IMG/VR virus record: IMGVR_UViG_3300023196_001802
Location: 21,663 to 45,412 of that record
Reading direction: 5' to 3' (one strand)
Length of the DNA: 23,750 nucleotides
Source of the DNA: a virus
Each line of letters opens with the position of its first letter. Positions within the stretch are counted from its first letter, which is position 1. Below the pieces are notes generated by a model. That model saw nothing but the letters and a program-made list of their open reading frames with translations, did no database searches and had not been told where the DNA came from. Made by a program: the position numbers and the translations under genes. Below, in pieces: positions 4,133 through 22,906 of the stretch.

Positions 4133-5311
4133 TTATTCACTCTCTAGGACTTCCCCAGATTGTGACTGATACCTTGGTGACTCAATTGTCTCCAAGATGC
4201 TTTTAACTGCCATCTCTATGACTTCGTCATGTGTGTGCTCTGGCAGTTCGGAGCCAATGCCTCTTGAATAACTCATGAGGGCTGGTCTCCGTAAATACTT
4301 TATAAAGATATCCTGTGGGATAAAACTAGAACCTGTGTACAAATCTACGAAGTTTTCCTGTATTGTATACAAAGGTGCCGAGTTTTTTGTTGTATTAAAC
4401 GGATCATCTAGTATAGCGTACAAGTCATCGTGTTGAGAGTATTTACAAAGTGTTCTCTTTAGCTTCAGTGTTGGGTTATCTTGTATGATCTCAGGGGTAA
4501 CTTCTCTTATTACCTCATCTATCACGAATGGTCCTTGGTTGACGTTTATGTCAATTACATCATCTGTAAGTGGATGCTTCCAACGTAGCACTGCATATGC
4601 ACCCACCGCACCAGGAATAGATACATCAGTCAGCTGAGTAAAAGCAGCTTCTCTCTTAAAGAATATCTCGTTGGCATCTGCTACAGGGGAGTCTGCTGTA
4701 ATCGAAGGAGATGTCAAATCAGAAAACCCGTCGTTAGGTGACAGGCTTGGTGTTATCTCTTCTCCGTAAACTCCGTTGCGAATAGAGTCTATTGTAATTC
4801 CCCCGAGGTTAGACTTAACACTAGTTAAAGCACCCGCAGCGTTAGCAACGCTGATATCTACCAAAATGTAACCTCGTATAGGTTGGTTGATTGGTACTCT
4901 CAAGTAGTAGTACTCTTTTCTAAATGTTTCAAAGGGCACATTTCTATCGATATTGCATTCGTAGAACACCTTGGCTCTAACGTTAATTAGGTGCATGTAA
5001 TCTGTGGGAAACTTTGCCCTGTAGGCAAATACGTCTCCCGAGCCCTTAGATGTATACACAGCGCCCATGTAACTGGGCAGGTTTTGGTAGTAATCTTCTA
5101 CGAGATTACGCAGATCATCCAATCGTTTCTGTGATTGCTCAAAACCACGGCGCTTTGGATTGCTCAACGCAGAGTATCTCTGCTTGATAAACCTTCTTTG
5201 CGCCATGTTCAACTCATGGTCGATCTCTTCAGGTAAGAGATTGTCAACCTGGAAAGACCCAAGCTTTTGGACTCCCAGGTTGACCGCTATATGCATCTCT
5301 TGTATTGTCAC
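4133..5311 (-). CDS. Putative head-tail connector / ring protein
   Basis: 392 aa. The start is GTG at 5309-5311, overlapping the upstream stop as GTGA (4-nt overlap, translational coupling); the next in-frame ATG is codon 6. The N-terminus (MTIQEMHIAVNLGVQKLGSF, then a LLPEEIDHELNMAQRRFIKQ segment) resembles a conserved protein found after the major capsid gene in crAss-like and related Bacteroidota podoviruses, where it is thought to form a neck or ring component. That resemblance is from memory of family sequences, not a search. The rest mixes alpha and beta segments with no enzymatic motif; no coiled coil or signal peptide. Position (second gene after the MCP) supports a connector role. 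Confidence 0.8.
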   Translation of the reverse strand: MTIQEMHIAVNLGVQKLGSFQVDNLLPEEIDHELNMAQRRFIKQRYSALSNPKRRGFEQSQKRLDDLRNLVEDYYQNLPSYMGAVYTSKGSGDVFAYRAKFPTDYMHLINVRAKVFYECNIDRNVPFETFRKEYYYLRVPINQPIRGYILVDISVANAAGALTSVKSNLGGITIDSIRNGVYGEEITPSLSPNDGFSDLTSPSITADSPVADANEIFFKREAAFTQLTDVSIPGAVGAYAVLRWKHPLTDDVIDINVNQGPFVIDEVIREVTPEIIQDNPTLKLKRTLCKYSQHDDLYAILDDPFNTTKNSAPLYTIQENFVDLYTGSSFIPQDIFIKYLRRPALMSYSRGIGSELPEHTHDEVIEMAVKSILETIESPRYQSQSGEVLESE

Positions 5312-17712: not shown

Positions 17713-18062
17713 GAGATACTATCATTCGATACGCTATCGTAGCAGCATTAGGGGCATTCCTGTCCCTTCTGTTTGCTATGGAGGCAAAAGCACAAGCATA
17801 CAACTGTGGTATGTTCGGCATGTTACAAGACATGTACGGTGAGACATACGTAGCACGGTTCAATGAGAACCTCGAGACTATACAACTCGAGTCAGCTACT
17901 ACGTGTGACCACATTGTCTGCAATGTAGACTTGTTCGACATCAAACGCAGACGTAAGAACACTGTACTATGGATTACAATCGAACATCCTAGGTTTGATG
18001 ACATGCCATACAGGATCAAGTACCCAACAGGTAGTTGGGGTATCATCAACAAAACCAAGTAA
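17709..18062 (+). CDS. Small exported protein with Sec signal peptide
   Basis: 117 aa, ATG at 17709 with a 4-nt overlap, stop TAA. Residues 1-30 form a classical signal peptide: MRDTIIR, a hydrophobic core YAIVAALGAFLSLLFAM, then EAKAQA with AxA-type sites after residue 28 or 30. The mature part of about 87 residues has three Cys (C33, C65, C71) and a beta-rich second half (KNTVLWITIEHPRFDDMPYR). No lipobox. It would act in the periplasm or at the surface. Superinfection exclusion or envelope modification are possible roles; the family is not recognised. It is followed directly by the structured RNA region. Confidence 0.8.
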   Translation: MRDTIIRYAIVAALGAFLSLLFAMEAKAQAYNCGMFGMLQDMYGETYVARFNENLETIQLESATTCDHIVCNVDLFDIKRRRKNTVLWITIEHPRFDDMPYRIKYPTGSWGIINKTK

Positions 18063-18072
18063 ACTGGTTACA

Positions 18073-18129
18073 AACGTAGCCTGGCGGCTAATACTCGAGT
18101 TAAGTGAGGTTCGATTCCTCACTGCGTTT
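18073..18129 (+). ncRNA. tRNA-like element 1 (acceptor and T arm, no room for anticodon arm)
   Basis: A 7-bp acceptor stem AACGTAG (18073-18079) / CTGCGTT (18122-18128) and a perfect T arm TGAGG-TTCGATT-CCTCA (18105-18121) with the consensus tRNA B-box. Only 25 nt separate acceptor and T arm instead of about 41, so a normal D arm plus anticodon arm cannot form; a D-loop-like CTGG is present. It is either a degenerate tRNA or a tRNA-like RNA. No CCA is encoded. Confidence 0.5.
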
Positions 18130-18131
18130 CT

Positions 18132-18266
18132 ATGATAACACAGCGTGCCGGCCAACGGGCAGTTAAGTACACGCAAGACAAATTGCTATACTACGATGAC
18201 GGTAGTATGCCTCCTTTTGATTCGACCCTTAAGGTAGTTGTTGATAGCTGTGTTATCATTTTATAG
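18132..18266 (+). other. Element closed by a 13-bp inverted repeat, overlapping a 44-codon ORF
   Basis: ATGATAACACAGC (18132-18144) is the exact reverse complement of GCTGTGTTATCAT (18247-18259), followed by TTTTATAG. Inside is a second strong hairpin at 18186-18210 (ATACTAC/GTAGTAT, 7 bp, extended by GC/GC around a bulged T). The same bases also read as an ORF of 44 aa from ATG 18132 to TAG 18264-18266 (MITQRAGQRAVKYTQDKLLY...). Both readings cannot easily be under selection at once; the stems favour a structured RNA, and the ORF is less certain. It fits exactly between two tRNA-like elements. Confidence 0.5.
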
Positions 18267-18368
18267 TGCGCATTGGCGTGGGGGGTTGTCTTTGTGTAGT
18301 ACTCGTAATTGGTTGAGCTACACATATCTACAGACATTATCCTGAAGGTTCGATTCCTTCCGCACTAC
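18264..18368 (+). ncRNA. tRNA-like element 2 with an extended arm in place of the anticodon arm
   Basis: A perfect 7-bp acceptor stem TAGTGCG (18264-18270) / CGCACTA (18361-18367) and a perfect T arm GAAGG-TTCGATT-CCTTC (18344-18360). Between them are 73 nt. A stem TGTCT/AGACA (18287-18291, 18332-18336) encloses a further 7-bp stem TGTGTAG/CTACACA (18293-18299, 18318-18324). No 5-bp stem with a 7-nt anticodon loop and T33 can be drawn. The layout recalls the tRNA-like domain of tmRNA, but no tag reading frame is seen. No CCA encoded. Confidence 0.5.
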
Positions 18369-18376
18369 AGTCGTCC

Positions 18377-18560
18377 CCTTTGCTAATTCGATCGGGTCGC
18401 GCCCGTTGTCCCTCTAGCAAAGGATACATGTGACGCAAATACCTATATGGTATTCCTACTAGGTAAGAATAGAGGGTTGCGGTGGACACGTAATCATATC
18501 TCTGTCGCCTTCGGGCGGGTAGTACTACTAGGGCGTTGGCGTTTCGCCTCTGTCCGGTCC
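18377..18560 (+). ncRNA. Run of hairpins, candidate structured RNA
   Basis: No convincing ORF. Stems visible in order: CCTTTGCTA/TAGCAAAGG (18377-18385, 18415-18423), enclosing CGGG/CCCG (18393-18405); an alternative CCCTCTA/TAGAGGG (18410-18416, 18470-18476); CGCC-TTCG-GGCG (18506-18517), a classic cUUCGg tetraloop; and GGCG-TTT-CGCC (18538-18548). The stretch continues without a gap from tRNA-like element 2 and leads to the pseudoknot before the 191-aa gene. It may be the 5' leader of that gene or part of a long phage RNA. Confidence 0.45.
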
Positions 18561-18596
18561 TAAGCATGACAGTAAACTGCTTTTTACTTTGAAATC

Positions 18597-18629
18597 AATG
18601 GCGTAAGGTGACGGCCATTAACAGTCACC
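18597..18629 (+). promoter_or_regulatory. H-type RNA pseudoknot in the leader of the 191-aa gene
   Basis: Two perfect interleaved 6-bp stems: AATGGC (18597-18602) with GCCATT (18614-18619), and GGTGAC (18607-18612) with GTCACC (18624-18629). Loops are GTAA, G and AACA. This is a textbook compact H-type pseudoknot ending 32 nt before the ATG at 18662. It could control translation initiation, protect a 3' end, or cap the upstream structured RNA. Confidence 0.6.
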
Positions 18630-18661
18630 ATCATAAAAATCATGTTTAAATCCATAACATC

Positions 18662-19237
18662 ATGGAAAACATCATTAACAGCGGCAAGCTGGAGGCCCTA
18701 ACTCCAGGCAACAGTCTCTTGGTACAAGCTATCCAAGTGGCTAATGGTAAAATCCAGTTGGAGCTGGCGGAGCGCCTTGAAGGTGCTGCACAAGCCAATC
18801 CACTGGCAGTGTTTAACAAATCCGACGAGAGATTCTCTCAAGGTGGGGCACGTCGTGCTTGGCTTACTTGTGAGCCAGCTGACGCAGCTGAACTCTTGGG
18901 CGTTGACTTGAAGGATGGTTACACAATGAACGAAGCTGGCAAGTCTGTCAAGCCTTTGAACATTGCGAACCCTACAGTTAACGGTAATGTACTTCGTGTA
19001 CAGATTACTGAGACTGTGGAGCCTAGTGAGTGGCAGATGGCCAACCTTTCTACAGCTGCAAAGCGTCGTGGTAAGGATGGTGAGTACATCACTCACGATG
19101 GTTGCTACATCTTTGCAAACTCTCAAGTTTGCTTTGGTGAACCCAGCCACACATTCCTCGAGGCGGATGCAGTGACTAAAGTCACTGGCGGCATCCCCGC
19201 TGGAGTGGACGTTATGACAGGAGAGATCATGTCGTAA
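18662..19237 (+). CDS. 191-aa protein of unknown function
   Basis: ATG at 18662, stop TAA, followed at once by a strong terminator. Begins MENIINSGKLEALTPGNSLL. It is soluble, with no signal peptide, two close Cys near residues 147-156 and mixed alpha/beta composition; a beta segment at about 118-131 (NGNVLRVQITETVEPSEWQM) is notable. Single-gene unit: an elaborate structured leader with a pseudoknot upstream and its own terminator downstream suggest strong, separately regulated expression. An early nucleic acid-binding protein such as an SSB analogue is possible by position next to the polymerase, but no OB-fold signature is clear. Confidence 0.82.
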   Translation: MENIINSGKLEALTPGNSLLVQAIQVANGKIQLELAERLEGAAQANPLAVFNKSDERFSQGGARRAWLTCEPADAAELLGVDLKDGYTMNEAGKSVKPLNIANPTVNGNVLRVQITETVEPSEWQMANLSTAAKRRGKDGEYITHDGCYIFANSQVCFGEPSHTFLEADAVTKVTGGIPAGVDVMTGEIMS

Positions 19238-19245
19238 CAAAACGA

Positions 19246-19272
19246 GGGGGCAGCGAAAGCTGTCCCCTTTAT
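19246..19272 (+). terminator. Rho-independent terminator after the 191-aa gene
   Basis: 9-bp stem GGGGGCAGC / GCTGTCCCC (one G-T wobble) closed by a GAAA tetraloop, followed by TTTAT. It ends exactly where the next tRNA-like element begins, so it may also define that element's 5' side. Confidence 0.8.
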
Positions 19273-19350
19273 CACCATGAGCTAATGGTAGCGCTGTCTC
19301 TCGGGGTAAACGAGGAGATACGACATTGGGTTCGATTCCCAACATGGTGA
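19273..19350 (+). tRNA. tRNA or tRNA-like element 3, anticodon uncertain
   Basis: Perfect acceptor stem CACCATG (19273-19279) / CATGGTG (19343-19349) with discriminator A, and perfect T arm TTGGG-TTCGATT-CCCAA. A D-arm GCTA-ATGG-TAGC is possible. The anticodon region is irregular: TCTCG-GGGTAAA-CGAGG gives a 7-nt loop with GTA (Tyr) at positions 34-36, but position 33 is G instead of the universal T, and there are extra bases on both sides (TGTC/GACA may pair). It could be an aberrant tRNA-Tyr or a non-decoding tRNA-like RNA. Confidence 0.5.
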
Positions 19351-19379: not shown

Positions 19380-19601
19380 ATGGGTAAAATGGGACAAATC
19401 GCTCACCTTATACAGGATGGGCGTTCTGATGTGCTTGATAACTTGATCAAAGCATCGGAGAGACAGAATAGAAATGAGGTATATTTCCTTGGTAAGACTT
19501 ACAGCATGGCAGACGCCAAGCAGATACTAATGTTTATGCAAAAAGAACAGAAGGAAAATGAAAAGCGTACGATTTATAGGCTCAAGCAGCCCTCTAAATG
19601 A
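19380..19601 (+). CDS. 73-aa protein upstream of the DNA polymerase
   Basis: Start ATG at 19380; an earlier in-frame ATG at 19326 lies inside the tRNA-like element and is rejected. Begins MGKMGQIAHLIQDGRSDVLD, helical and charged, with a basic C-terminus (KENEKRTIYRLKQPSK). The gene overlaps the polymerase start by 44 nt in another frame, so translation is probably coupled. No known domain; a short polymerase-associated or regulatory protein is possible. Confidence 0.72.
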   Translation: MGKMGQIAHLIQDGRSDVLDNLIKASERQNRNEVYFLGKTYSMADAKQILMFMQKEQKENEKRTIYRLKQPSK

Positions 19602-21411
19602 GATACAGACGGCTACGATTGAGGAGTGTGCGGCATACTGCAAGACAAAGACAGTCCTTGGTGTAGACACGGAGACTGAAGGCTTTGACTTCACCTCCAA
19701 GAAGATGATCATGCTTCAGATTGGGGACAGAGAGCGTCAGTATGTAATCGATACACGTGTGGTAGATATAACACTTCTTAAACCAATACTAGAATCACAT
19801 GATATTATCAAGATTTTTCACAACGCTAAGTTCGACTACAAGTTCATCAAAAAGTGGGCTGGAATTTCGGTGGAAGAGATATACGACACGTTTCTTGTGG
19901 AGAGAGTTATCAATTGTGGCAAGCAAGACTATGGATACTCTCTTGCCAAGTGCGTGGAGCGATACCTCGGTGTTACTCTCAATAAAGAGACGCGTAGTAA
20001 ATTCATCGGACTCAAAGGTCAGCCTTTTACTGTCGACCAAATTACGTACGGGGCAAACGATGTGGTTTATCTGTTGGACATACGGCAGAACCAGCTTGGC
20101 TTACTTCATACGTATGAACTTGAGCAAACAGCACGTCTTGAGAATAAGGTAGTCAAGGTATTCTCTGAGATAGAGTACGAGGGACTAGCTATTGATAAGG
20201 ACAAATGGACAGTTATGGCAGAGAACAATGTCAAGCTGGCACATGAGCAGTCGATCAAGCTAGATGATATGGTGTTGGCACATCCATTGTTACAGCACTA
20301 TAATATACCAGTACAGGTGGATATGTTTGCTCCTATAGAGGACATCAGGCATACTCACATCAACTGGGGCTCCCCTACGCAAACCTTAGAGCTATTCAGG
20401 AATCTAGAACCTAAACTAGAGGATGTTAACGGTAAGAAACTAAATAAGTACAGATACAAACATAAACTCATAGATGAATATATACGCTATAAAGAAAGGA
20501 CCAAGCTCGCAAACGCCTACGGTACTAAGTTCTTCAACTACGTCAACAGTGATGGGAGAGTTCATACAAATTTCTCACAAATCCTTGACACGGGAAGAGT
20601 TTCTTCCTCAAAGCCTAACATGCAGCAGATTCCAAGCGATAACACCTTTAGAAACTGTTTCATTGCTCCACAGGGATGGGTCTTTGTTTCCTCTGATTAC
20701 TCTAGTCAGGAACTAAATGTCATCGCATATGGCAGTAAAGATCCGGTGTGGCTTGATGCTCTCACCAGAGGATTGGATTTGCACGGAGTATGTGCAGATC
20801 TCGTATTCGAGGACAAATGGAGAAACGCTGACCCTGACGCACGGAAGAAGCTCAGAACCCAAATCAAAGCAATCAACTTTGGCTTGGCCTATGGTATGGG
20901 CCCATTCAAGCTAGCAGATACATTGCAGATATCTAAGTCAGATGCAGAGGCACTCATAGAGAAATACTTTACAGAGTTTCCTAACATCAGAGACTTTCTA
21001 CAAACTCTTGGTACATTTGGTACACGTAATGGTTACATACGTACCTTCAAGCCATTCAAGCGTAGAAGGTGGTTTGATACGTGGTTCCCTAAGATCTGGA
21101 ATGACAGGTCTATGTTCCAGGAGTTCGGTAGTATTGAGCGTGCATCTAAGAACACACCTATTCAGGGTTCATCAGCTGACATGACTAAACTGGCTCTCAT
21201 CTATATACATAGAGAGATACAGGAGTCATGGTCTGATACCGTGAAGATTGTAATGACCGTACATGATCAGATTGATTGTGTATGCAGACAAGATGTAGCC
21301 GAGGCATGGGCAGTCAGGATGACTGAGCTCATGGAGAAGGCTGCTAAAGTAATTATACCTAATGGCCTGTTAAAGGCAGATACTAATATTTCAAAGACAT
21401 GGGAAAAATGA
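19558..21411 (+). CDS. polA: DNA polymerase I family (family A) with 3'-5' exonuclease
   Basis: 617 aa, replicative phage polymerase. The start ATG 19558 follows an AAGGAAA purine tract. Proofreading domain (1-180): Exo I VDTETEG (D37, E39), Exo II HNAKFD (88-93), Exo III YGANDVVYL with D168. Polymerase domain: DTGRVSS (344-350), motif A SSDYSSQEL with D380, motif B KAINFGLAYG with K437, F441 and Y445, and motif C TVHDQ with H569 and D570. There is no 5'-3' exonuclease domain, as in other phage enzymes such as T7. The residue equivalent to E. coli F762 is Phe (F441), a state reported for virulent marine phages. Motif A DYSSQEL differs from the common DYSQIEL. The stop overlaps the next start (ATGA). 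Confidence 0.97.
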   Translation: MKSVRFIGSSSPLNEIQTATIEECAAYCKTKTVLGVDTETEGFDFTSKKMIMLQIGDRERQYVIDTRVVDITLLKPILESHDIIKIFHNAKFDYKFIKKWAGISVEEIYDTFLVERVINCGKQDYGYSLAKCVERYLGVTLNKETRSKFIGLKGQPFTVDQITYGANDVVYLLDIRQNQLGLLHTYELEQTARLENKVVKVFSEIEYEGLAIDKDKWTVMAENNVKLAHEQSIKLDDMVLAHPLLQHYNIPVQVDMFAPIEDIRHTHINWGSPTQTLELFRNLEPKLEDVNGKKLNKYRYKHKLIDEYIRYKERTKLANAYGTKFFNYVNSDGRVHTNFSQILDTGRVSSSKPNMQQIPSDNTFRNCFIAPQGWVFVSSDYSSQELNVIAYGSKDPVWLDALTRGLDLHGVCADLVFEDKWRNADPDARKKLRTQIKAINFGLAYGMGPFKLADTLQISKSDAEALIEKYFTEFPNIRDFLQTLGTFGTRNGYIRTFKPFKRRRWFDTWFPKIWNDRSMFQEFGSIERASKNTPIQGSSADMTKLALIYIHREIQESWSDTVKIVMTVHDQIDCVCRQDVAEAWAVRMTELMEKAAKVIIPNGLLKADTNISKTWEK

Positions 21412-22193: not shown

Positions 22194-22267
22194 GCCCTGA
22201 TAGCACAACTGGATAGTGCAACATCCTTCTAAGATGTAGGTTGTGGGTTCGAGTCCCGCTCGGGGTA
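22194..22267 (+). tRNA. tRNA-Arg (anticodon TCT)
   Basis: A complete cloverleaf: acceptor GCCCTGA/TCGGGGT (G-T at the end pair) with discriminator A, D arm GCAC-AACTGGATA-GTGC, anticodon arm ACATC-CTTCTAA-GATGT with TCT at 22228-22230 and T33 present, T arm GTGGG-TTCGAGT-CCCGC. CCA is not encoded. It reads AGA, a codon used often in this phage. Confidence 0.93.
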
Positions 22268-22326
22268 CGCGTGTGAGGCGATAACAGCTCACTCGTAATT
22301 AGTTTATTTCTAGTTTCAACAGGTGA

Positions 22327-22356: not shown

Positions 22357-22429
22357 GCGCCCGTAGCTCAGTGGTTAGAGCAGTTGACTCATAATCAATT
22401 GGCCGTAGGTTCAAGTCCTACCGGGCGCA
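22357..22429 (+). tRNA. tRNA-Met (anticodon CAT)
   Basis: A complete cloverleaf: acceptor GCGCCCG/CGGGCGC, discriminator A, D arm GCTC-AGTGGTTA-GAGC, anticodon arm GTTGA-CTCATAA-TCAAT with CAT at 22390-22392, T arm GTAGG-TTCAAGT-CCTAC. The lack of three G-C pairs in the anticodon stem argues against initiator tRNA. A tRNA-Ile with lysidine-modified CAT is the alternative. CCA is not encoded. Confidence 0.93.
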
Positions 22430-22444
22430 CAACACGATTACACA

Positions 22445-22906
22445 ATGATAGATCCAAAAACAAGTCCCTATGCGTATCCGGGACTGCACAACAGTGCGCA
22501 AACACGTATAAAGCACAGCCACTGCTTTAACAAAGGTGAGTTAGACATCATAGCTATGGCTTGCTGTGATGAGTACGGTCTTACATTTGAAGAATTCAAA
22601 GGCAGATGTAGGAGCGCTATGTTAGCGGATGCTAGGAAGATATTCTTCTACCTGTGCAGAGAAGAGTTCTATCAGTTTACATGCAAACGTCTCGGTATGT
22701 ATGCTGACAGGGATCACTCTACGGTTGTCTACTCTGTACAAAGAGCAGGGCAGCTGTTGGAAGTAGATCCTACGTTTCGAGACAAATTCAAGCACGCAAG
22801 AGGCGTTGCTGAACTAAGACTAAAATTAAATGGATATGAATACAGATCCGACATTAACGTTCGATATCGAGCGAATCAAAATGGAGCAGGACAACTTGAA
22901 AAATGA
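22445..22906 (+). CDS. DnaA domain IV-like origin-binding protein (stand-alone)
   Basis: 153 aa, ATG at 22445, 15 nt after tRNA-Met. Residues 32-115 match the C-terminal DNA-binding domain of DnaA (Bac_DnaA_C): a first helix ELDIIAMACCDEYGLTFEEF, a helix with RSAMLADARKIFFYL, then LGMYADRDHSTVVYSVQRAG, which contains the DnaA signature D-R-D-H-S-T-V (residues 88-94; G-R-D-H-S-T-V in bacteria) that reads the DnaA box major groove. There is no AAA+ ATPase part, so it cannot melt DNA alone. It may mark the phage origin, recruit host DnaA or a helicase loader, or repress. The C-terminal 77 nt overlap the next frame. Confidence 0.88.
   Translation: MIDPKTSPYAYPGLHNSAQTRIKHSHCFNKGELDIIAMACCDEYGLTFEEFKGRCRSAMLADARKIFFYLCREEFYQFTCKRLGMYADRDHSTVVYSVQRAGQLLEVDPTFRDKFKHARGVAELRLKLNGYEYRSDINVRYRANQNGAGQLEK

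Follow-up and report, generated by a model that had tools for sequence, protein, structure and literature searches.

What does a phage do with an intergenic gap that is packed with structured RNA, some of it shaped like tRNA? We address this question for an uncultured phage known from a 45,412-base virus record; the window, that is, the whole 23,750-nucleotide stretch of DNA analysed here, is a part of that record and has phage genes for terminase, portal, amidase and family A DNA polymerase. An initial annotation described positions 18063-18640, between a 117-aa and a 191-aa gene, as a packed non-coding array of structured RNAs. This description holds: every module lies near the place given for it, and relatives at 80 loci support the array. 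Two tRNA-like elements (TLs) have their acceptor and T-arm at about the positions proposed, a 13-bp closed element occupies 18132-18259 and an H-type pseudoknot is found at 18597-18629, with compensatory changes among relatives. The reported run of hairpins with a cUUCGg loop is also real, although it extends over 18377-18582 and its last part (18550-18582) is itself a pseudoknot. A third tRNA-like element (19273-19349), just 3' of the 191-aa gene, had been overlooked. The features are collected in Table 1. The folding energy of the whole array (z -2.4) is too weak to serve as an argument; the evidence from comparison is strong.

Table 1. Features of the array and its surroundings (window coordinates).
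Feature	Position	Strand	Description
117-aa gene	stop at 18062		array starts directly 3' of the stop
TL1	18073..18129	+	acceptor 18073-18079/18122-18128 (AACGTAG/CTGCGTT); T-arm 18105-18121 (TGAGG-TTCGATT-CCTCA)
Framed RNA element	18132..18259	+	13-bp closed; outer helix TGATAACACAGC/GCTGTGTTATCA invariant, interior variable, core GTKARGTACAMGCAAGA
TL2	18264..18368	+	acceptor 18264-18270/18361-18367 (TAGTGCG/CGCACTA); T-arm 18344-18360 (GAAGG-TTCGATT-CCTTC)
Structured module with cUUCGg hairpin	18377..18549	+	first helix CCTTTGCTA/TAGCAAAGG (18377-18385/18415-18423)
Second H-type pseudoknot	18550..18582	+	consensus [X]-C-UAAGCA-(U/A)-[X']-nnAAAC-UGCUU
Leader H-type pseudoknot	18597..18629	+	S1 AATGGC/GCCATT, S2 GGTGAC/GTCACC; ends 32 nt 5' of the start codon
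191-aa gene, candidate single-stranded-DNA-binding protein	18662..19237	+	followed by a 91-aa ORF, then the DNA polymerase gene
Terminator-like hairpin	19246..19267	+	GGGGGCAGCGAAAGCTGTCCCC, then TTTAT; between the 191-aa gene and TL3
TL3	19273..19350	+	acceptor CACCATG/CATGGTG; T-arm TTGGG-TTCGATT-CCCAA; D-loop AATGGTA
Family A DNA polymerase (context)	19558..21411	+	617 aa; PHROG 17, E 8e-108
tRNA-Arg(UCU)	22194-22268	+	ordinary; called by ARAGORN and Rfam
tRNA-Met(CAU)	22357-22430	+	ordinary; called by ARAGORN and Rfam
153-aa ORF near the tRNAs	22445-22906		DnaA C-terminal helix-turn-helix domain PF08299, E 6e-14

We found no nucleotide or protein relative of the array or of the 191-aa protein in a search of 50,697 annotated phage records, so the comparison is based on relatives in IMG/VR: 16 loci first, then 80 loci that include the 16 (given below as L numbers). 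The phage's host is probably a marine Bacteroidota. An 805-aa protein encoded elsewhere in the record (L018 7960-10377, minus strand) has a sorting domain for type IX secretion (TIGR04183, 29.2 bits with the cut-off at 23), which is unusual for a phage-encoded protein and points to a Bacteroidota host. A scan for sigma-70 promoters gave no match, as may be expected for Bacteroidota.

Are the tRNA-like elements simply tRNAs? ARAGORN and Rfam do detect normal phage tRNAs in the window, since both call the two ordinary tRNAs further downstream, which act as an internal control. Neither calls any element of the array or TL3, and none of the TLs in the window scores above the gathering threshold of RF00005; ordinary tRNAs are thus ruled out, as the initial annotation had supposed. 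Each TL keeps the half that a functional tRNA would need for its acceptor and T-arm (a 7-bp acceptor stem, a 5-bp T-stem and a canonical T-loop), and none of TL1-TL3 has a 5-bp anticodon stem with a 7-nt loop and a readable anticodon. TL1 has GG in a short linker and no anticodon arm, TL2 has a long variable arm where the anticodon arm would be, and TL3 has an enlarged arm lacking an anticodon, with A at the discriminator position. A tmRNA (RF00023), which would combine tRNA-like ends with a tag-peptide frame, was likewise searched for with ARAGORN and Rfam and has no match in the window.

The same anatomy recurs in the relatives. TL1 has homologues in L091 and L096, the seventh acceptor pair of the TL2 homologue in L097 differs by a compensatory change, and equivalents of TL3 occupy the matching site in 12 distinct sequences, with differing acceptor stems. 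Most TLs lack a usable anticodon arm, which is replaced by long variable arms, by 7-bp stems with ~12-nt loops or by nothing. The second type is found in freshwater relatives (e.g. TAACGAG/CTCGTTA and CTGCAAG/CTTGCAG). The third is represented by mini-TLs of ~42 nt in L153 and L159, which consist only of an acceptor, an 11-nt linker with ATGGT and a T-arm; L151 and L161 have a similar mini-TL with a 6-bp acceptor. In 29 of 30 TLs the linker after the 5' acceptor strand contains GG, as a D-loop/T-loop contact needs. Run on the relatives' TLs, ARAGORN returns 'tRNA-???' or a call on the enlarged arm, and one upstream TL of L097 has a borderline RF00005 score (29.1 bits). Non-decoding TLs can escape tRNA finders or be misnamed by them. 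For example, a tRNA-Lys(UUU) called by ARAGORN in L116 and L117 (5619-5708) has an enlarged arm; it is probably a non-decoding element, and a warning for phage tRNA annotation. A further tRNA-like family, AGTCAGG...CCTGACT (L107, L108, L110, L112, L123-L125, L202), resembles tRNA-Leu, has 82-181-nt bodies with replaced arms and often lies near tRNA-Arg(UCU).

The TLs are far from a chance pattern. A scan of 679 kb for a 5-bp T-stem with a TTCRANY loop and a directly contiguous, exact 7-bp acceptor gave 71 matches (normal tRNAs included) on the strand that is sense for the 191-aa gene, none on the antisense strand and none in three shuffles. T-arms alone, counted independently, gave 67 distinct ones in sense orientation against one in antisense, and 53 of the 67 had an acceptor at gap zero. 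Across 21 distinct non-decoding TLs, 99.2% of cells are paired, a percentage that is biased because acceptor pairing was partly a search criterion; the strand and shuffle controls are unbiased. Double-change cells number 87 against 20.2 in shuffled alignments, and the covariation score is 0.969 against 0.212. Covariation among homologues, the check proposed in the initial annotation, thus finds compensatory changes in the TLs, and it does so also in both pseudoknots, in the helix 18377-18385/18415-18423 and in the inner helices of the framed element.

These numbers bear on the idea that the TLs are decaying tRNA remnants without present function. It would suit the freshwater TL3s of L110, L112, L116 and L121-L126, which look like elongator tRNAs and have a normal D-arm, and the likeness of the AGTCAGG type to tRNA-Leu. 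Decay should, however, bring a loss of pairing, and would not be expected to leave elements at a fixed site beside one gene; with acceptor and T stems so completely paired through many double changes, we consider this explanation very unlikely.

Is the array then one molecule or several? The initial annotation left the choice between one ornate RNA and a processed set of tRNA-like RNAs, and pointed to GOLLD and ROOL as large structured phage RNAs that occur beside tRNAs. Comparison of close relatives favours the processed set. L091, whose 191-aa protein is 99% identical, keeps TL1, TL2 and TL3, with another RNA in the slot between the first two, and has lost or never had the 18377-18582 module. 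In L093, TL1 and the framed element are missing, and TL2 is present along with the 18377-18582 module, whose first helix differs between L093 and the window by three compensatory pairs. L096 has two framed elements; L097 has one, together with an extra TL. Because these cargo RNAs are swapped or vanish between close relatives, the array is a series of separate modules. A single ornate noncoding RNA of the GOLLD/ROOL kind would account for the dense structure, the nearby tRNAs and the phage origin. Yet no Rfam covariance model for GOLLD or ROOL matches in the window, many GOLLD RNAs exceed 800 nt, far more than this array (PMC12286853), and the modules are gained, lost and exchanged independently, which led us to reject the single RNA; we regard it as highly improbable. 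A kinship with GOLLD and ROOL is not supported either: they are also structured phage RNAs near tRNAs, but here we see a modular array and not one large conserved RNA.

Exchange of this kind could also mean that the modules are mobile or recombining cassettes, selfish or exchangeable elements that gather in the intergenic slots and have no specific role in expression; the ends of some would derive from tRNA or form a 12-bp terminal inverted repeat. Wholesale replacement between near-identical phages fits such cassettes, as does the framed element, whose outer helix stays invariant around different interiors, as a terminal inverted repeat would. The outer 12-13 bp are invariant, so covariation neither supports nor refutes this helix; the interiors differ and their inner helices covary. 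Against cassettes speak the strong compensatory change that maintains RNA structure, the location of every TL on the transcribed strand and the recurrence of different sequences at identical positions by the 191-aa gene. We judge this account quite unlikely.

The position of the TLs around the 191-aa gene is the second line of evidence. Downstream, 12 distinct sequences have a TL 13-36 nt past the stop codon of this gene; if L092 and L095 are counted in, the acceptors are of eight types. Upstream, TLs end 53-66 nt 5' of the start codon in L091, L097, L153, L155 and L159, only 1-6 nt ahead of the leader pseudoknot. TL2 of the window ends 294 nt 5' of the start codon, with another module in between. 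Further TLs lie a few kb downstream, in the neighbourhood of the tRNA cluster. Much of the family (e.g. L100-L106, L111, L114, L115) has no TL directly 3' of the 191-aa gene, and many relatives have a hairpin only; the downstream TL is thus not essential. In the window's clade TL3 follows a terminator-like hairpin, with similar hairpins in L092-L099, so only read-through RNA would contain TL3; a terminator scan did not include the hairpin at 19246-19267 among its calls.

Siting also helps in weighing the view that the TLs are stable, tRNA-shaped carriers or decoys, in which the top half would protect an RNA that affects the host through its enlarged variable arm, e.g. as antisense RNA, by luring anticodon nucleases or by keeping tRNA enzymes busy. 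Here one can point to the arm that replaces the anticodon arm, which is the most variable part and differs among close relatives (TL2 in the window, L091, L093, L096), and to the AGTCAGG-type elements near tRNAs, with their long inserted arms. But the mini-TLs are entirely armless, the arms have no sequence in common, a decoy for anticodon nucleases would be expected to retain an anticodon loop, and nothing in this view predicts siting beside the 191-aa gene. We consider it unlikely.

The 191-aa gene itself has a leader with a familiar layout. Across ten distinct sequences of the leader pseudoknot, 96.3% of cells are paired, with 14 double changes against 3.0 in shuffled alignments; the covariation score is 0.404, that of the shuffles 0.134. 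The pseudoknot lies 27-33 nt 5' of the start codon in most closer relatives (other sequences replace it elsewhere), and the sequence between the two is rich in A+U and contains UUAAA-like repeats. In the operator of T4 gene 32, too, an H-type pseudoknot precedes an A+U-rich, less structured stretch that extends as far as the start codon and has repeats of the UUAAA kind (PMC535899, PMC3014915). Moreover, RNase E cuts the T4 gene 32 mRNA at -71, beside the pseudoknot at -67, and a second time close to the 3' end of the gene (PMC3014915). The two systems differ in the distance from pseudoknot to AUG (about 40 nt in T4, about 27-33 nt here), in having RNase E sites as opposed to TLs, at which cleavage is proposed, and in the phage, here one of Bacteroidota. 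Their proteins belong to unrelated families as far as tested, the PF08804 search having been run without a positive control.

Given this operator layout, the 191-aa protein may repress its own translation. We treat it as a candidate single-stranded-DNA-binding protein: its predicted order of strands and helix fits an OB fold (pLDDT 81.5). No sequence match was found in Pfam, PHROGs, NCBIfam or PDB, no OB-fold match with Foldseek and no match to T7 gp2.5 with hhalign. The bacterial-type SSB family PF00436 is absent from 16 records, in a search whose positive controls worked; PF08804 had no match in 16 records and PF10991 no match, both in searches without a positive control, which do not establish absence. 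The protein preceding the DNA polymerase in crAss-like cr108_1 was considered as a relative of the 191-aa protein and is unrelated.

From the anatomy and the placement of the TLs we infer that they are cutting signals for RNase P and RNase Z, which would free the mRNA of the 191-aa gene and the cargo RNAs, with the leader pseudoknot as a gene 32-like operator; we hold this combined reading to be somewhat better than an even bet. A TL retains what bacterial RNase P and RNase Z would recognize, namely a 7-bp acceptor stacked on a 5-bp T-stem with a canonical T-loop, usually with a D-loop-like GG, and its decoding half is enlarged, scrambled or lost. Acceptor, T-stem and T-loop are enough for cleavage by bacterial RNase P (PMC11143913), which requires the T-loop or a similar loop and can dispense with the D-loop (PMC4919913); the acceptor/T-arm stacks found here are of this sufficient type. 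When transcription reads through the array, every TL would be cleaved on its 5' side by RNase P and on its 3' side by RNase Z. The cuts would release the RNA between two TLs, which in the window would be the 13-bp-closed RNA (about 18130-18263), and the mRNA of the 191-aa gene, bounded by TL2 upstream and TL3 downstream. Where a TL abuts the leader pseudoknot, as in some relatives, the cut would leave the pseudoknot as the 5' end of the mRNA. Transcription of the array, cleavage and binding by the 191-aa protein are steps that we infer.

Several known systems resemble parts of this scheme. Mitochondrial genomes have functional tRNAs between genes, which were proposed as cutting sites (tRNA punctuation). 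Both systems have tRNA-shaped elements between genes, whereas here they are non-decoding and concentrated at one phage gene. The CI RNA of phage P4 is a phage RNA, not a tRNA, with a tRNA-like signal for processing by RNase P. Going by the title of a reference cited in PMC11143913, the precursor of the C4 antisense RNA of phages P1 and P7 is likewise a non-tRNA phage RNA with a tRNA-like processing signal. By comparison with the C4 precursor and CI RNA, several TLs occur per locus here, flanking mRNA and cargo RNAs, and they have canonical acceptor/T-arm halves, sometimes of only ~42 nt. TL1 finds its best Rfam match in mascRNA, at 20 bits and far under gathering (RF01684, 42.5 bits). MascRNA/menRNA, small and tRNA-like, lacks a proper anticodon arm and is generated by RNase P and RNase Z; it is a product of eukaryotic lncRNAs, and TL1 is like it in shape only. 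In the open-access text that we searched, no paper describes phage arrays of non-decoding tRNA-like elements.

Stated in full, a lineage of Bacteroidota phages may have converted tRNA genes into 'cut here' modules that no longer decode and keep just the half used by RNase P and RNase Z; these would excise the mRNA of an autoregulated replication protein and swappable new noncoding RNAs from one transcript. We advance this only tentatively. If this is true, tRNA processing serves a virus as a general means to cut mRNA and to set noncoding RNAs free, a bacterial-virus counterpart of the mitochondrial punctuation model, and the ~42-nt TLs would be natural examples of the smallest model substrates of RNase P designed in the laboratory. 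With the leader pseudoknots, an arrangement that was considered possibly the sole viral case in a 2010 review (PMC3014915) would then have an example beyond the T4 group.

Several RNA families of the array are absent from Rfam. The framed family, with outer helix GATAACACAGC, occurs in the window and in L005, L006, L007, L009, L012, L013, L048, L058 and L097, with at least three kinds of interior; alternatively, its invariant ends could be the terminal inverted repeat of a small mobile element. Another structured-looking RNA, ATCCTTGGGYCTTAG..GGTGGGG..TACTACCTCTT, is found in L091 (~4662-4830), where it fills the slot between TL1 and TL2, and in L098 (4767-5000). A dense non-coding stretch lies between a framed element and a TL, 5' of the 191-aa gene, in another clade (L013 2345-2620, and L014). 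The second pseudoknot has no match in Rfam; its motif was found in 15 distinct sequences, with 100% pairing and a covariation score of 0.390 against 0.106 in shuffled alignments, and it may serve as operator, as processing site or as ribozyme. It sits in short intergenic gaps, often 30-42 nt 5' of an ORF. The strict pattern of its commonest form matches 42 viral stretches and none of the GTDB genomes, and the motif, whose full form is GAAAGGACG..CGTCGTATTCCTAAGCATGAAGACAAACTGCTTA, is present in the window, L101, L120, L125, L127, L129, L159 and L215-L256.
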